From positions 186,001 through 250,000 of the forward strand of contig JAQWTL010000007.1 of assembly GCA_029242715.1 (NCBI GenBank): DNA of 64,000 nucleotides, written 5' to 3'. The notes beneath the pieces were generated by a model. It did no database searches. It saw nothing but the letters and a program-made list of their open reading frames with translations, and was not told the origin of the DNA. The number at the start of each line of letters is the position of its first letter. Position 1 is the stretch's first letter. The stretch is from Phycisphaerales bacterium (GTDB lineage Bacteria > Planctomycetota > Phycisphaerae > Phycisphaerales > SM1A02). The position numbers and the translations under genes are program-made. Below, piece by piece: positions 20,091 to 57,386 of the stretch.

Positions 20091-20309
20091 TCCCTTCCTC
20101 TTTACTTGATGGGCTCAGCGGATCGACCACCGAACCATCCAGGTGGATGAGTGTACCACCCGAAATGGCAGGTTTCCTTGCCCTTGGCGGAAGCGAATGC
20201 CTTCAAATACCTTGCTCAGGGACCCTGCAGGGAAGTGGAATCTGTCACAATCTCCCGGCAACGCGGATGTTGCCAGAACGGATTGATCTTCTTTTATTGG
20301 ATTTCTCGC
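20091..20309. other. Divergent intergenic region, 219 nt
   Basis: Lies between the start of the His-rich protein operon (minus) and the PP2C sensor gene (plus). Both promoters must be here, but I found no convincing -35/-10 pair. A sigma54-like TGGCAGG and TTGCC pair at about 20166 has the wrong spacing. Confidence 0.45.
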
Positions 20310-22211
20310 ATGTCTCTTCGCTGGAAACTTGTCCTTTCCATTGGCATACCTGTACTGGTTGTGTATGGAATCCTGATCTGGGTCCAGTATTCAACGCTCA
20401 GGGATACCGCCCTGGCTGATGCCCGGACATCCGCAAGATTGGCCTCCGAGTCATGGGCAAACAGTTTCAATGGAGAACTTCATGGGGTGGCTCAGGCAGT
20501 AGACGCCATTGCGTACGCAGTAGCCATGCACACTTCACTTCAGGAAGAAGAGGTCTACCTGCTCAATGAGCAACTCATGGATCAGAACCAACTCGTTGCA
20601 GGTTCTTCGGTGGCATTCAAGCCACGTCAATGGCTTCCCCATGTTGATCAGTACGCTCCTTATTCATGGGAGATCGAAGGCGAGAAAAAACGTCGTGATC
20701 TCGCAAAGGAATACGACTACACGACGCGAGAGTGGTACACGGAAGGCGCAGACGGAACAGCTGGGTGGACTGAGCCCTACGATGGACCCGTCTTCGGATC
20801 CTTGCTGGTCACATACAGCACTCCCGTAGTTCGTGAAGGCCAGGTGATCGGTGTTGTTGCCGCTGATATTGCCCTGCTGCCATTGCAGCAACAGTTGATG
20901 GAATCCGGTCCGGAGGGCATGACCACGATGTTGGCATCCCCTGATGGCAAGTTCATCGTGCATCCGGATCCCGAACGCATCTTTTCAGACTCCGTACAGA
21001 GTGAAGCCGACCGAACAGGTACCGAATCGCTCGCGGCCTGGTCAAGAGATGCAAAGGGTGGGAATGCCGGCTTCCAGCAACTGGCCCGCTACCCCATGAA
21101 TCGGGATCATTGGCTTCTGTACTCTCCGGTCAAGGCCACCGACTGGTCGATGGCCGCGGCTTTTTCCAAAGACGACATCCTTGAGCCTGTTCATCGCCAA
21201 CTCGTACTCAATCTGATTCTGATGGGAGCCGGGCTTCTGACCTTGCTGGCCATCATCACCTTTGCCGGCTTCCGAATCGTACGGCCAGTCCGAAAGCTCG
21301 CAGGGGCCGTGCGAAAACTGGGCGATGGAGATCTTGAAGTTCGAGTGGATCCTCCATCGGGGCGTGATGAGATCGGAGATCTGGCACGCGGCTTCAATGA
21401 GATGACTGAACGTCTGCAAGAGAACATCCGGGTACTGGCACTTGAAACCGCTGCACGTGAACGATTTGAAGGCGAGATGCACGTTGCCAGAAATATTCAG
21501 GAGATGCTCCTTCCAAAGGCCTTTCCTGCATTGCCAGATCGGAACGATGTCGAGGTCTGGGCCCTCAATGAACCTGCACGGGTTGTTGCAGGAGATTTCT
21601 TTGACATCATTGATCATGGTGATCGAATCACAGTCGTGATGGCGGATGTCTCGGGCAAGGGGGCTGGCGCAGCCATGTTCATGTCAATGGCTCATACGAT
21701 CATCCGGATTTTCGATTCTGAAAATCTTCCCTTGACTGATCTGGTTCATCGGCTCAACCAGTGCCTGTACCCCGATTCAAAAGGAACCATGTTCGTCACA
21801 CTTGTGATTCTGCGATACGAACCTTCATCTGGATCAATGGAATTTGTCAATGGAGGTCATCCACAACCAGTCGCAATAAGCAGTGCGGGCTCGGTTCAAC
21901 TTGTCGGCAACTCTACTGGACCACTTGTTGGCGCCATTGAGCAGGCGGACTGGACATCCCTTACACATGTACTTGAACCTGGTGATCGACTTGTCCTGTA
22001 CACCGATGGCGTCACCGAAGCAAGAAACGAATCTGGAGCCATGCTCGGAACAGAAGGCCTTCTGGAAGTCCTGGAACAGGACAGCATGAAAAGGGATACA
22101 TCTGAATTGCTGTGCAAGAATCTCGTCAAGACGATTCACCAACGAGAGCCAGGCGAGCCTTCGGACGATATCACCGTCCTGGTCCTGGGCCGACCACTCC
22201 ACTCATCCTGA
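20310..22211 (+). CDS. Membrane sensor with HAMP and SpoIIE/RsbU-type PP2C phosphatase
   Basis: 633 residues: membrane segment 1 (about 7-28), a periplasmic Cache-like sensor domain (with YDYTTREWYTEG and GPVFGSLLVTYSTPVV), membrane segment 2, a HAMP linker (RPVRKLAGAVRKLGDGDLE to IGDLARGFNEMTERL) and a C-terminal PP2C domain. Metal-binding acidic motifs are AGDFFDI and ADVSGKGAGAAMFM, with YTDGVTEARN late. Predicted to dephosphorylate an anti-anti-sigma (STAS) protein in response to an extracellular ligand and so release a sigma factor. No STAS or anti-sigma gene lies in the window. ATG 20310 is chosen so that the first membrane segment follows; a longer frame upstream has no family match. 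Confidence 0.88.
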   Translation: MSLRWKLVLSIGIPVLVVYGILIWVQYSTLRDTALADARTSARLASESWANSFNGELHGVAQAVDAIAYAVAMHTSLQEEEVYLLNEQLMDQNQLVAGSSVAFKPRQWLPHVDQYAPYSWEIEGEKKRRDLAKEYDYTTREWYTEGADGTAGWTEPYDGPVFGSLLVTYSTPVVREGQVIGVVAADIALLPLQQQLMESGPEGMTTMLASPDGKFIVHPDPERIFSDSVQSEADRTGTESLAAWSRDAKGGNAGFQQLARYPMNRDHWLLYSPVKATDWSMAAAFSKDDILEPVHRQLVLNLILMGAGLLTLLAIITFAGFRIVRPVRKLAGAVRKLGDGDLEVRVDPPSGRDEIGDLARGFNEMTERLQENIRVLALETAARERFEGEMHVARNIQEMLLPKAFPALPDRNDVEVWALNEPARVVAGDFFDIIDHGDRITVVMADVSGKGAGAAMFMSMAHTIIRIFDSENLPLTDLVHRLNQCLYPDSKGTMFVTLVILRYEPSSGSMEFVNGGHPQPVAISSAGSVQLVGNSTGPLVGAIEQADWTSLTHVLEPGDRLVLYTDGVTEARNESGAMLGTEGLLEVLEQDSMKRDTSELLCKNLVKTIHQREPGEPSDDITVLVLGRPLHSS

Positions 22212-52828: not shown

Positions 52829-52869
52829 GGCCGCCTCCTGAACCCGCACTTTCCCTCCCGGGGAGTACC

Positions 52870-53439
52870 ATGCAAGCCTCGATGATCAATCAAGGAAGTC
52901 CAATCAACCCTTCCAGGAAGGCCGTCTCCAGCAGGCACCAGAACGAGGTCGTCCAATGGCTGGAGGCACTGCGGTCACCAGAATCGGCGGCACTCCCTTC
53001 TCATCCAAGCCTGCTCTTTTTCAGGCATGCAGGCGAAGAACTGGCCTTGCCGGCAGTCATCGTAGGAAGCGTCGAAATGGTTGGCTTCACCCACCGCGTT
53101 CCCCACAGGGAAGGACCGACCCTGCGAGGCCTTGCTGCAACGAATGGTGATCTTCTCCCCTTGATCGATCTGTCCAATGCCGTTGGCCTGGATCCTGATC
53201 ATCAGGAAGATGATCGTGTCCCCCGCCTGCTCGTCCTGTCACCACTCCAATCAATCGAATCACGGTGGACAACGATCGTTGACATTGTGCATGGTGTTGA
53301 AATGTCCGATCCAGAGACATGGTCGACATCTGATACGACATCGCCATATGTGAAAGCACTTGTACAGACGCCCCGTGGCACGGCCAAGCTGCTTGAAACC
53401 GACGCACTCCTTGACTCCCTGGCAGCAGTATTCCAATGA
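52870..53439 (+). CDS. CheW-like coupling protein
   Basis: 189 residues with one CheW domain (LLFFRHAGEELALPAVIVGS, RGLAATNGDLLPLIDLSNAV, IVDIVHGVEMSD). An N-terminal extension of about 40 polar residues precedes it. ATG 52870 has GGGGAG 5 nt upstream, whereas the longer open frame upstream has no family match. Predicted to bind the CheA kinase and link it to a receptor. The stop overlaps the cheA start by 4 nt. Confidence 0.82.
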   Translation: MQASMINQGSPINPSRKAVSSRHQNEVVQWLEALRSPESAALPSHPSLLFFRHAGEELALPAVIVGSVEMVGFTHRVPHREGPTLRGLAATNGDLLPLIDLSNAVGLDPDHQEDDRVPRLLVLSPLQSIESRWTTIVDIVHGVEMSDPETWSTSDTTSPYVKALVQTPRGTAKLLETDALLDSLAAVFQ

Positions 53440-55634
53440 GTGGTGACCTCAGTGGATTCTCGATGTTCGATCTCTTCAAGGAAGAAGCCCGCACGCATGG
53501 CGAGGCCATCAGTCGTGGCCTGGTGGAACTGGAATCCAATCCTGCCAACAAGGAGCTGATTGCAGCTCTCATGCGTGCTGCGCATTCACTGAAGGGCGCT
53601 GCACGCATTGTTGGAGTTGACCTGGCTGTTGGTGTTGCACATGCCATGGAAGATGCCATGGTGGCCGTACAGAATGGTGAAGCCGTCATTACGCCAACGC
53701 GGATCGACCAGTTGCTGGCGGCTTCTGATCTGCTGGCCCAACTGATCGAGCTGGAAGAATCAGGCATTGATGACTGGACCATGGCCAACGTGGCAAATGC
53801 GGATTCTCTTGCCACCGATCTCAGAACACCGGTCACTGATGCGGCTTCAGAGGCCGTTGAGCGAAACCAGGACGCCTCGGAGATTCCTGCGGAGGCCTCT
53901 TCTGCCCCAGTTGTGGACGAGGGATCTGTTCGGGTCACTTCCAGTCGCCTCGACCAGATCATGCGACTGGCCGGCGAAAGTCTCGTTGCATCACGGCGTT
54001 TCCAGACCGTCAGAGATCAGTTGATGATGCTGCGAAGAAGACATGGCAAATTCCAGTCGCGTCTCAGAGAAGCAAGACTGCGCGAAGCCGAAACATCGGA
54101 AGAGGCATTGGATCAAGCCCTACGAGAAGCTGCTCGATCCGAACTGGAACTTGCAGAGCACCAGGATCAGTTGGATGTCTTTCTTGGCAAACTCGAGGAA
54201 CTGGCGGATTCCTTGTACAACGAAGTTCTTGGCTCACGCATGCGACCCTTTGATGAGGGCATTTCCATGTTCCCCAGGATGGTGCGAGACCTGTCTCGAG
54301 ATCTGGGAAAGAAAGCCATACTTGAAATTGACGGTGGCGCCGTACCCGTTGATCGAGATGTTCTCCGTGAACTTGAAGCACCCCTGACTCACATGCTTCG
54401 CAACTGCGTCGATCATGGGGTAGAAACCACGGAAGAGCGATTGGCGAATGGAAAACCAGAAATCGCTACAGTCAAATTGAACGCGTACCATCAAGGCGGC
54501 CGTCTTCATGTCCTCATCGAAGATGATGGCAAAGGCATTGATCCTGAAGGCATCCGACGGAAAGTCGTCGATCGCGGCTTCGCTGATGAATCGGTCGCTG
54601 AGGCTTTGACTGACCGTGAACTCTACGAGTTCCTGTTTCTTCCCGGGTTTTCAACTGCAAAGGCTGTCACCGATGTTTCTGGTCGAGGCGTCGGGCTTGA
54701 CGTCGTTCAGACAATGGTCCAATCGATGGCTGGTGGCGTTCGAATCAGTTCGGTCCCCGGAAAAGGGACGACATTCCACCTGACACTCCCGCTTACTAGA
54801 TCCGTTGTACGCGCCCTGATTGCAGATCTGGGAGGCGAGTCATATGCCTTTCCTCTGACGCACATTGACCGTATCGAGAAGATCCAGGAAGAGTCGATCC
54901 AATCCAGCGAAAATGGCCGTGTCGTCGAGGTGGATGGTGATCAATTCAGCCTGCTGGATACCGGAGCGATCATGGAACTGGATCCTGTTCGGCCAAGTCG
55001 CAAGATCCACACGATCATTACTGGTAGTGAGGATGAGGCCGTTGCACTCCAGGTCGATAGCTTCCTTGGGGAAGAAGATCTTCTGGTCCGACCGCTCGAC
55101 AAGCGATTTGGACGAGTCCCACATCTTTCCTCAACCGCTTTTCGTGAAACCGGTGAGCCTGTTCTGATTGTGGATGTCGAAGATGTCCTGCGAAGCGCAC
55201 GACGAGCCGTGGCCGAAGGGGCCTTTGCCACCGACGTGGTGTCTGACACTTCAACTCCAGTTGGCCCACGCGTGCTTGTAGTCGATGACAGCATCACCGT
55301 ACGGGAAGCTCAACGAGCCATTTTGACTCGTCATGGATACGAGGTTGATGTAGCCGTTGACGGTGCAGAGGGCTGGGAGCGACTTCAGCGTGGGCAGTAC
55401 GATCTTCTGATCACTGATGTCGACATGCCCGGAATGAATGGCATCCAATTCGTCCAGACACTACGCGCACAGACTCGCTTCAAGGATCTTCCTGTCGCAA
55501 TGGTTTCCTACAAGGATGAAGAATCACAGCGACAAGAAGGGCTGGATGCTGGCGCGACGGTTTATCTCAGCAAGCACGTCATCAATGACAGTCAGTTCAT
55601 TGATACTGTTCATTCATTACTTAAGCATCAATAG
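53436..55634 (+). CDS. CheA-type hybrid histidine kinase with C-terminal receiver
   Basis: 732 residues: HPt (P1) with phospho-His50 in AAHSLKGAARI; a low-complexity linker without an obvious P2; P3 dimerisation helices; the P4 ATPase (HMLRNCVDHGVE, EDDGKGIDPEG, DVSGRGVGLDVVQTMV); P5 CheW-like domain (SYAFPLTHIDRIEKI); and a receiver with phospho-Asp661 in LLITDVDMPGMNG. The layout matches WspE/FrzE-like kinases. Predicted to phosphorylate its own receiver and the receiver-PP2C protein encoded 14 nt downstream. Coupled to cheW by ATGA. Confidence 0.93.
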   Translation: MSGDLSGFSMFDLFKEEARTHGEAISRGLVELESNPANKELIAALMRAAHSLKGAARIVGVDLAVGVAHAMEDAMVAVQNGEAVITPTRIDQLLAASDLLAQLIELEESGIDDWTMANVANADSLATDLRTPVTDAASEAVERNQDASEIPAEASSAPVVDEGSVRVTSSRLDQIMRLAGESLVASRRFQTVRDQLMMLRRRHGKFQSRLREARLREAETSEEALDQALREAARSELELAEHQDQLDVFLGKLEELADSLYNEVLGSRMRPFDEGISMFPRMVRDLSRDLGKKAILEIDGGAVPVDRDVLRELEAPLTHMLRNCVDHGVETTEERLANGKPEIATVKLNAYHQGGRLHVLIEDDGKGIDPEGIRRKVVDRGFADESVAEALTDRELYEFLFLPGFSTAKAVTDVSGRGVGLDVVQTMVQSMAGGVRISSVPGKGTTFHLTLPLTRSVVRALIADLGGESYAFPLTHIDRIEKIQEESIQSSENGRVVEVDGDQFSLLDTGAIMELDPVRPSRKIHTIITGSEDEAVALQVDSFLGEEDLLVRPLDKRFGRVPHLSSTAFRETGEPVLIVDVEDVLRSARRAVAEGAFATDVVSDTSTPVGPRVLVVDDSITVREAQRAILTRHGYEVDVAVDGAEGWERLQRGQYDLLITDVDMPGMNGIQFVQTLRAQTRFKDLPVAMVSYKDEESQRQEGLDAGATVYLSKHVINDSQFIDTVHSLLKHQ

Positions 55635-55648
55635 GAATCTTGTTGCCC

Positions 55649-56848
55649 ATGACCAGCACAAACACAAATGATGTTGAAGCAACTCCACCAGGAATCAGGG
55701 TCATGCTGGTGGATGATCAGGCCATGATCGGCGAAGCCGTACGACGCATGCTCGCCAGTCAGGATGACATCGAATATCGCTATTGCGACAACCCACTGGA
55801 AGCGATCGAGACCGCTCGCGAGTGGAAGCCAACTGTGATTCTCCAGGACCTCGTCATGCCTGATGTCGATGGACTGGATCTTGTCCGTGATTACAGGGCC
55901 GATGATGCCACCTCACTGGTCCCCATCGTGGTCCTGAGTTCACGAGAGGAAGCCGCTACCAAGGCAGAGGCCTTTGCCCGTGGCGCCAATGACTATCTCG
56001 TCAAGCTTCCGGATCCTGTTGAGATCATTGCAAGGATTCGCCATCATTCCGAAGGTTTCCTGGCAAGGATTCAGAGAGACAGCGCCTACATTGCACTCGA
56101 GGAAAACGAGGCCCATCTTCGCGAAGAACTCTCCAAGGCCGCAGCCTATGTTCAATCGCTTCTCCCTGAACCGATGAATGATCGCGTGCAGACGGATTGG
56201 CGGTTCATCCCATCTGTTTCTCTTGGTGGCGATGCGTTTGGCTACCACTGGCTGGATGATCACCGACTTGCACTGTTCCTGCTGGATGTCTGTGGGCATG
56301 GTGTCGGCCCTGCTCTGCTGTCCATCACAGCGATGAATGTGATTTCCAAGAAGTCGCTCCCAAATATCGACTTCGGTGATCCAGGCGCCGTTCTCTCGGA
56401 ATTGAATAACCGGTTCCAGATGGATGATCACCAGGGAATGTTCTTCACCATCTGGTATGGGGTCTATGACGAACAGAAGAAAAGTCTCGACTGGAGCGGT
56501 GGCGGGCACCCCCCTGCACTGCTGATGAACAAGGGCTCGGATTCACCCCTCCTCCTGGAGTCGGATGGCCCCATGGTCGGTGCCGTGAAGGATCTCCAAT
56601 TCGATACACATACCTGTGATGTCGACCCCGGAAGCCGCCTGGTGCTCTACAGCGACGGCATCTACGAGATCAAGAAGCCTGACAACACGCTTTGGACTCT
56701 GGAGGAATTTGTCGAACTGGTTGCAAGCCAACCCTCCCACGACGTCTCCTCGGTTGATGCCATCATTGGATCAGTCAAAGCCGTCAGTGGACAGAATCTC
56801 TTCGAGGACGACTGTTCAGTCGTCGAGTTCACATTCGCTGAATCCTGA
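55649..56848 (+). CDS. Response regulator with C-terminal PP2C (RsbU-type) phosphatase
   Basis: 399 residues. Receiver domain: MLVDDQAMIGEAVRR, phospho-Asp67 in ILQDLVMPDVDG, the switch stretch VVLSSREEA, and Lys in DYLVKLPDP. After a helical linker comes a PP2C domain with metal-binding residues in SLGGDAFGYHW and LDVCGHGVGPALLS, then SGGGHPPALLM and LYSDGIYEI. Predicted output of the CheA pathway: phosphorylation would switch phosphatase activity on an anti-anti-sigma factor. ATG 55649 is preferred to an upstream TTG at 55640. No STAS or anti-sigma gene is in the window. Confidence 0.92.
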   Translation: MTSTNTNDVEATPPGIRVMLVDDQAMIGEAVRRMLASQDDIEYRYCDNPLEAIETAREWKPTVILQDLVMPDVDGLDLVRDYRADDATSLVPIVVLSSREEAATKAEAFARGANDYLVKLPDPVEIIARIRHHSEGFLARIQRDSAYIALEENEAHLREELSKAAAYVQSLLPEPMNDRVQTDWRFIPSVSLGGDAFGYHWLDDHRLALFLLDVCGHGVGPALLSITAMNVISKKSLPNIDFGDPGAVLSELNNRFQMDDHQGMFFTIWYGVYDEQKKSLDWSGGGHPPALLMNKGSDSPLLLESDGPMVGAVKDLQFDTHTCDVDPGSRLVLYSDGIYEIKKPDNTLWTLEEFVELVASQPSHDVSSVDAIIGSVKAVSGQNLFEDDCSVVEFTFAES

Positions 56849-56984: not shown

Positions 56985-57386
56985 ATGACCACTGCTGATC
57001 GACCTGCACTCATACGCTGCACACTGTTTCTGTCGGGCCTCGCCTGGATTCTTCCATTCGGTGTTCTCGGACTGTGCGTGTTATTGATAAACGATCTGGG
57101 CAGCGTCGATCCATTCAGCAGCCTGGCATCACACGCCGGTAGTGAGACGATCTCGATTGGCCTGTCATCCATTTTCAAGGGCAATTCACTGGCAGCTTTC
57201 GCAGTTGCCCTGGCAGTCTTTGCAGTCTTTGCCCTGGGCAGCCTGCTGGCGACAGCAAGCCTGTGCACTGGCCGCCTGGCGATGAGATTGGGCGCAAGCA
57301 ACATTCCACTTGCCGTCGGGCTACTGGCAGCCGGTCTTTACCTGGCGATCATTCTTGGCATGGTCCTGGGCGCAACCATCAACTGA
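56985..57386 (+). CDS. Small hypothetical membrane protein
   Basis: 133 residues, three predicted membrane segments (about 10-33, 69-93, 105-131) rich in Ala, Leu and Gly. The loop between the first two (about 35 residues, DLGSVDPFSSLASHAGSE) faces one side. No family recognised. It follows the receiver-PP2C gene by 136 nt on the same strand, with a strong hairpin in front of its ATG. A longer open frame extends upstream, but that part has no coding look and overlaps the previous gene. Confidence 0.6.
   Translation: MTTADRPALIRCTLFLSGLAWILPFGVLGLCVLLINDLGSVDPFSSLASHAGSETISIGLSSIFKGNSLAAFAVALAVFAVFALGSLLATASLCTGRLAMRLGASNIPLAVGLLAAGLYLAIILGMVLGATIN

Follow-up and report, generated by a model that had tools for sequence, protein, structure and literature searches.

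A reduced Wsp-type chemosensory gene cluster with a predicted PP2C phosphatase output in a genus of the Phycisphaerales

The Wsp system is known for linking surface sensing to cyclic-di-GMP. In a 64,000-nucleotide (nt) stretch of DNA from a Phycisphaerales bacterium (assembly GCA_029242715.1, contig JAQWTL010000007.1, positions 186,001 to 250,000; hereafter the window), three co-directional, tightly packed genes encode a CheW coupling protein, a CheA-REC hybrid kinase and a receiver-PP2C protein. Judged from its sequence, this cluster is a reduced Wsp-type chemosensory system in which a PP2C phosphatase domain stands in the place of GGDEF, in a genus that appears to have lost or moved the receptor, CheR and CheB. 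The arrangement is real and conserved: a variant of Wsp with another output, reduced in this genus. A first-pass annotation of the window had recognised the three coupled genes, and their open reading frames (ORFs) do carry the expected Pfam domains, as listed here; what it missed is that the cluster, by its sequence relationships, is of Wsp type.

52870..53439, + strand: CheW-type coupling protein, WspD-like, 189 amino acids (aa); Pfam CheW, E 4e-10.
53436..55634, + strand: CheA-REC hybrid kinase, WspE-type, 732 aa; Pfam Hpt, HATPase_c, CheW and a C-terminal REC.
55649..56848, + strand: REC-stalk-PP2C output regulator in the WspR position, 399 aa; REC E 1e-19, SpoIIE E 3e-41.

The CheW and CheA genes overlap by 4 nt, and the REC-PP2C gene follows the CheA gene after 14 nt if it starts at ATG 55649, or after 5 nt if it starts at TTG 55640. 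No MCP (methyl-accepting chemotaxis protein, the chemoreceptor), CheR or CheB gene adjoins the cluster. The motifs AAHSLKG in Hpt and GRGVGLDVV in the ATPase domain are kept, as are the receiver aspartates and lysine; we take these, and the acidic residues of PP2C, to serve the functions of their domains, including metal binding by the latter. The H-kinase_dim match of the CheA protein reached 18.5 bits, under the Pfam cut-off (23).

The complete operon was found in relatives. A CheA at least 42% identical to that of the window occurs in 43 of 201 genomes of the order, its own included (best match among the matches listed), and of the 42 others we examined the loci of 36, which belong to the same family (31) or to another one (5). 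The gene order in these loci is MCP, CheW, CheR-TPR, CheW, CheA-REC, CheB, REC-PP2C, and in one of them (L093) Pfam confirmed every gene, including the TPR behind CheR. REC-PP2C was found in 35 of these loci, the remaining one being cut off at a contig edge; CheR was seen in 32, CheB in 31, and in 27 an MCP lies within the stretch retrieved. Several of the missed genes reflect contig ends, and CheB in L082, L090, L095 and L096 is perhaps masked by a further receiver protein. The first-pass annotation had named a neighbouring receptor with CheR and CheB, just outside any conserved block, as grounds for giving up its reading, and this applies by half: in the relatives they stand inside the operon, but they are absent from the cluster of the genus. 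In three loci of one other genus (g6; L065, L078, L080) no MCP was found at the start of the operon, where a receiver-containing protein of about 590 aa stands instead.

The gene order wspA-F,R is described for Pseudomonas by Kessler et al. 2021 (PMC8552884; this and the other publications cited are represented by excerpts), and we read it directly in Pseudomonas sp. G34 (L233). The full wspA-B-C-D-E-F-R succession occurs in relatives of the window genome such as L093, whereas the window genome itself holds only the D, E and R equivalents; another member of its genus (L063) is likewise without MCP, CheR, CheB and one CheW. Because the gene set of the window is incomplete, its assignment to Wsp is based on ancestry and not on a full gene set. 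The CheA of the window is 42% identical to WspE of Pseudomonas sp. G34 over 758 columns, and its CheW matches WspD of that strain at 32.5% over 80 columns (E 2e-8). A quick tree (LG+G4) built from 85 kinases separated 77 Wsp kinases from eight other CheA proteins of the order, with a Shimodaira-Hasegawa-like approximate likelihood-ratio test (SH-aLRT) support of 100. The eight are 27-37% identical, and 'flagellar-type' is a provisional label for them; the tree leaves out eight of 16 such CheA proteins and 16 of the 80 loci of a wider scan (see below), those without an output class. Within it, the window CheA falls in a clade of 25 planctomycete sequences (support 99), every one of which has a PP2C output.

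With CheR, CheB and one CheW gone and the receptor gene elsewhere, the cluster might be taken for a decaying, non-working remnant of a Wsp operon. We consider this very unlikely: the three overlapping or adjacent ORFs are intact, CheA is 72-77% identical in three other species of the genus, and catalytic and phospho-acceptor residues are retained.

The output protein combines a receiver and stalk of the WspR type with a phosphatase domain. Compared with PDB sequences, receiver plus stalk scored 172 bits against WspR 3bre and 165 against WspR 3i5a, followed by PleD at 57 and RssB at 43, and the protein is 56% identical to WspR of Pseudomonas sp. G34 over 145 aa. A SpoIIE/PP2C domain occupies the position of the GGDEF domain that marks the WspR type and its cyclic-di-GMP output, and Pfam gave no HisKA or HATPase match of the WspH kind in the protein. 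Residues G194, D195, D213, D336, D387 and D388 of PP2C are invariant in 19 sequences. An AlphaFold2 model built with 19 sequences (mean predicted local distance difference test score 91.3, predicted template-modelling score 0.72) places a single helix, residues 123-170, between receiver and phosphatase. We read these sequence data as an exchange of outputs behind a WspR-type receiver, in either direction. A Foldseek search with the model returned RssB of Pseudomonas aeruginosa, itself a REC-PP2C protein, at the top (template-modelling score 0.46-0.56), with WspR at ranks 7, 8 and 11, and RssB was the only REC-PP2C protein recognised among the best 60 of 200 PDB sequences. These matches could mean that an RssB-family REC-PP2C adaptor was brought in from elsewhere to serve as the output protein, and that no WspR changed its output here. 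The bit scores of receiver and stalk speak against that origin, as does a receiver tree of mostly low support that pairs the receivers of the REC-PP2C and REC-HD proteins of a single locus, L202, as sisters (SH-aLRT 95) and unites the PP2C and cyclase receivers of cyanobacteria; we hold this origin to be highly improbable.

Such an exchange would not be confined to the window's genus. Genome contigs were searched with the planctomycete kinase alignment, and outputs were assigned in the best 80 of 561 confirmed loci, 7 of which lie on contigs that the set of 36 loci above also contains. As the search was seeded with planctomycete kinases and took the best 80 of 561, the proportions are not a census. 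A WspR-type receiver with PP2C was present in 26 of the 80 loci (7 of these among the 36), GGDEF only in 22 (L222 counted here) and other outputs only in 16, and in 16 none was found; most of the 'other' outputs were judged by eye, and seven regulators were checked with Pfam. The PP2C carriers include 14 planctomycete loci (classed by record title) and further loci assigned by their records to Thermodesulfobacteriota, Acidobacteriota, Lentisphaerota, Elusimicrobiota, Cyanobacteriota and Pseudomonadota. On the same receiver type, Pfam identified SpoIIE in L186, L188 and L192, a class III cyclase in L187, L191 and L197, a histidine kinase in L211 and L213, and HD in the second regulator of L202; in L208 it found the receiver only. 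Mapped onto the kinase tree, output labels change at least ten times (the other CheA proteins and two loci labelled 'both' uncounted).

Several of these loci are of interest individually. In L202 (6494-8985) two WspR-type regulators stand in tandem, one with HD and one with PP2C, and in view of their sister receivers this looks like a duplication followed by an exchange of output. In L216 (2041-3315 and 12238-13311) and L255 (2079-3305 and 12255-13304), both of methanotroph type judging by their titles, a single Wsp operon is surrounded by two proteins with WspR-type receivers, a REC-PP2C and a REC-GGDEF; the output may be forked. Eight cyanobacterial loci (L189, L191, L193, L197, L198, L203, L226, L236) couple the receiver to a class III cyclase (Pfam in L191 and L197 only); cyanobacterial L188 and L192 carry PP2C rather than this cyclase. 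One of the 14 planctomycete loci, L181, is labelled 'Candidatus Kuenenia stuttgartiensis', yet over 14 kb it does not differ from the DNA of L083, a locus of G060 in the window's family, and the label looks wrong.

The window genome (3.2 Mb, 96.7% complete) encodes only two proteins with a CheW domain, the CheW and CheA of the window, and one MCP, on contig 45 and unlinked to the cluster. That CheR and CheB are missing, as the first-pass annotation had stated for the locus, holds for the whole genome: CheR was not found there in a whole-genome search (positive controls in 7 of 14 genomes), nor was CheB in any of six genomes of the genus, the window's included (positive controls in 6 of 14 genomes). 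The CheR and CheB pair of a classical adapting chemosensory system is absent here, and because neither enzyme was found in the genomes so searched, methylation-based adaptation is unlikely in this system. Counts of methylation motifs in receptors did not differ clearly between groups, and thus gave no sign for or against lost adaptation.

The MCP has a HAMP and an MCP signalling domain; dCache-type matches were weak and under the cut-offs. Its gene begins at the end of a gene for an UrtA-like binding protein (Pfam Peripla_BP_5, E 4e-142), and synteny is conserved, the UrtA-like gene lying directly before the MCP gene in all four genomes of the genus that have it. CheA was found in 4 of the 6 genomes of the genus (72-100% identity), the MCP in the same four (62-100%) and the UrtA-like gene in these four also; the other two, G225 and G256, gave receiver-domain matches only for CheA and weak matches only for the MCP. 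Presence and absence of the three genes are therefore concordant in 6 of 6 genomes, though the two loci are unlinked. The first-pass annotation had described the cluster as having no chemoreceptor, which is correct for its surroundings but not for the genome. A receptor-less relay is rejected as the leading interpretation in view of the one genomic MCP that co-occurs with the kinase.

In a tree rooted on ten WspA proteins from outside the order, the MCP of the genus groups with the order's own 36 MCPs, a position that any MCP from this order could take. The MCP of the window genome is 36% identical to WspA of Pseudomonas sp. G34 over 353 columns, and its tip, NLLSVNASIEAEKAGEAGRGF, resembles the corresponding segment of WspA from L233 and of the L093 and L066 operon receptors. 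A relocated WspA working without methylation enzymes would fit these data, as a conjecture. Several points weigh against a urea-type receptor that signals to the cluster. The UrtA-like protein scored 457.1 with the NCBI UrtA model, below its cut-off of 492.75; the co-occurrence sample comprises six genomes, of which G225 and G256 are 91-92% complete; and the MCP of the genus is placed beside the operon receptors with a support of 86 and on a long branch. Among PDB chains, three urea-binding proteins matched the UrtA-like protein with 312-320 bits and the best chain, 8tg1 ('extracellular ligand-binding receptor'), with 411; no urea-transporter gene was recognised among the ORFs of 19.5 kb around the MCP gene (five of them scanned with Pfam). 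The long branch and the separate contigs of receptor and cluster could also indicate that the remote MCP does not signal to CheA and that the cluster is a receptor-independent relay with some other input. This seems unlikely to us: the only MCP and the only CheA found are present or absent together in all six genomes, and the tip of the MCP is close to that of WspA and the operon receptors.

For the target of the phosphatase, the first-pass annotation had proposed partner switching on a sigma factor and had suggested searching the genome for STAS and anti-sigma partners as well as for receptors. Besides the MCP, that search found nine STAS matches and three HATPase_c_2 matches, two of which are RsbW-like and each have a STAS gene as neighbour, one pair being on contig 46 and the other on contig 38. 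The proposal gains from these pairs and from four linked loci in other organisms, but in the window genome the STAS and RsbW-like genes are, by their coordinates, unlinked to the cluster. In L186 (Desulfoferrobacter suflitae) RsbW-like and STAS genes adjoin the REC-PP2C gene convergently, L216 (Methylococcaceae) has a STAS gene behind it in the same orientation, L232 (acidobacterial) has an RsbW-like gene some 450 nt downstream of it, and in L206 a STAS/RsbW-like pair is located upstream, at the edge of the cluster. Among the PP2C loci of non-planctomycetes this linkage (4 of 12) gives p 0.011, a split chosen after the data were seen.

A number of results count against the partner switch, its lack of linkage in the window genome among them. 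The 35 loci of the order that were searched yielded no STAS or RsbW-like gene within the stretches covered, nor did the wider scan's 14 PP2C loci from planctomycetes, and neither RsbW type tracks CheA across the six genomes of the genus. Over the wider scan, linkage in 4 of 26 PP2C loci as compared with 0 of 22 GGDEF-only loci gives a Fisher p of 0.11. The L215 cluster, to which no output could be assigned, also has an RsbW-like gene nearby, and weak STAS matches occur in L188 (below the Pfam cut-off), in L203, L226 and L236, which have cyclase outputs, and in L250. A STAS/anti-sigma partner switch is the leading class of target, plausible though unproven.

The pair on contig 38 has a setting of its own: RsbW-like kinase, STAS and MlaE-like permease genes are consecutive on one strand (L022, 7073-8684), an arrangement suggestive of a partner switch that acts on lipid transport. 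The same Wsp-PP2C pathway might thus have another substrate, for example the STAS protein encoded between kinase and permease. By eye, the contig 38 RsbW type is present in all four cluster-bearing genomes of the genus, in one of which (G156) it is the sole HATPase_c_2 match, and no sigma gene was recognised next to either STAS/RsbW pair (from ORF starts only). Set against this, the type also occurs in G256, which is without the cluster, and the pair on contig 46 is equally possible. We regard such a substrate as possible but rather unlikely, and prefer a sigma-factor switch.

Taken together, we favour as the probable pathway a reduced Wsp system in which PP2C replaces GGDEF and a remote receptor signals through CheA-REC and PP2C to a STAS/sigma switch. 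The single remote receptor would probably read the UrtA-like binding protein, whose gene immediately precedes its own, and with one CheW it would form the core unit that controls CheA-REC. CheA would phosphorylate the WspR-type receiver, whose dimerisation may order the continuous helical stalk and so pair and activate two PP2C domains. These would then dephosphorylate a STAS anti-anti-sigma protein, freeing a sigma factor from its RsbW-like kinase. Without CheR and CheB, the output would track receptor occupancy with no methylation-based adaptation. Of all this, the sequences themselves establish the gene content, the Wsp origin of kinase and receiver, PP2C in the place of GGDEF, the lack of CheR and CheB and the joint occurrence of the two unlinked loci; phosphotransfer, signalling through the stalk, the ligand and the partner-switch target are predictions.

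The closest known systems share some of these features. The Wsp system of Pseudomonas (WspA-F, WspR; PMC8552884) shares with the relatives of the window genome the gene order, CheR-TPR (L093), two CheW proteins, CheA-REC and the WspR-type receiver and stalk; the window genome differs in having PP2C for GGDEF and one CheW, no WspB, WspC (CheR) or WspF (CheB), and its receptor elsewhere beside the UrtA-like gene. According to the excerpt of Kessler et al. 2021 (PMC8552884), with data from Beta- and Gammaproteobacteria, either WspR or WspH seems to serve in every Wsp system. In the WspH system of Burkholderia, too, the front end is Wsp and the receiver carries a different output domain, but its histidine kinase is encoded upstream, whereas the phosphatase here is encoded downstream (PMC8552884). 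A Wsp-like cassette of the cyanobacterium Phormidesmis priestleyi also has another output at the WspR position, in this case a class III adenylate cyclase (PMC4971617). The union of a receiver or sensor, a helical linker and a PPM/PP2C domain is known from RssB of P. aeruginosa (PDB 3eq2, 3f7a) and RsbU (PMC12143880); here the receiver is WspR-type and the expected donor a CheA/WspE-type kinase. Chemosensory genes are linked to a partner switch, CrsR/CrsA on the sigma factor RpoS, in Che1 of Shewanella oneidensis (PMC9855816), where CrsR carries the anti-sigma domain and CrsA is encoded in the same locus; here the STAS and RsbW-like genes are unlinked and the operon is of Wsp type. WspE-WspRF has been reported in all studied groups of freshwater Planctomycetes and described as a two-component system with a possible role in controlling surface affinity (PMC6461901); the excerpted account does not mention a PP2C output. 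We recognised no paper on Wsp with a PP2C output in the open-licence PubMed Central (PMC) literature, among the matches listed and mostly from titles and the start of abstracts.

Two further features flank the cluster.

56985..57386, + strand: membrane-type protein of 133 aa directly behind the PP2C gene, kept in the genus.
52829..52869, no strand: divergent stretch of 41 nt next to a DUF7133/cytochrome c gene, valid if that gene starts at ATG 52828.

The 133-aa protein follows the PP2C gene in all three other cluster-bearing genomes of the genus (67% identity in L272, 55% in L273, 41% in L063); it has no Pfam family, neither the order's remaining loci nor the 80 of the wider scan gave a clear match to it, and it is at most a candidate member of the system. 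The divergent DUF7133/cytochrome c neighbour is kept in all four cluster-bearing genomes. The spacing of 41 nt between divergent starts that the first-pass annotation gave stands with ATG 52828 but not if the alternative start, GTG 52849, is used. The further suggestion that the cluster may control the cytochrome operon gained no support beyond an adjacency conserved within the genus; that the PP2C output is not itself a DNA-binding protein counts against direct control. According to ORF clustering, a neighbour outside the operon recurs in 6 of the order's 36 loci at most. A second PP2C protein, which the annotation had placed near 20310, does exist as ORF 20151-22211. Its terminal PP2C domain (21618-22193) is the strongest SpoIIE match of the genome, and its N-terminal half has, by eye, the appearance of a membrane-bound extracellular sensor followed by HAMP.

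With PP2C as the output of Wsp, genes in this organism are probably switched through a sigma-factor partner switch and not through cyclic-di-GMP. More tentatively, with somewhat less than even confidence, we suggest that Wsp may be a general front end whose receiver and stalk drive GGDEF, PP2C, class III cyclase, histidine kinase and HD outputs; that its PP2C form may be old, cross-phylum and feed partner switches; and that the form in this genus, stripped of methylation and with one binding-protein-coupled receptor, would be a non-adapting switch from a nutrient (urea or amide) to a sigma factor. The genus adds a minimal form of the system: one receptor, one CheW, one kinase and one output, with no methylation enzymes found. 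Linker-driven activation of dimers has been proposed, with coiled-coil linkers as an exchangeable toolkit for phosphatase, cyclase and kinase outputs (PMC12143880, in excerpt), and the range of outputs that nature has placed behind this one receiver and stalk would test that proposal directly. If the receiver and stalk drive phosphatases in several phyla, genomes annotated with 'Wsp', such as those of the freshwater planctomycete survey (PMC6461901), would not simply be cyclic-di-GMP systems.

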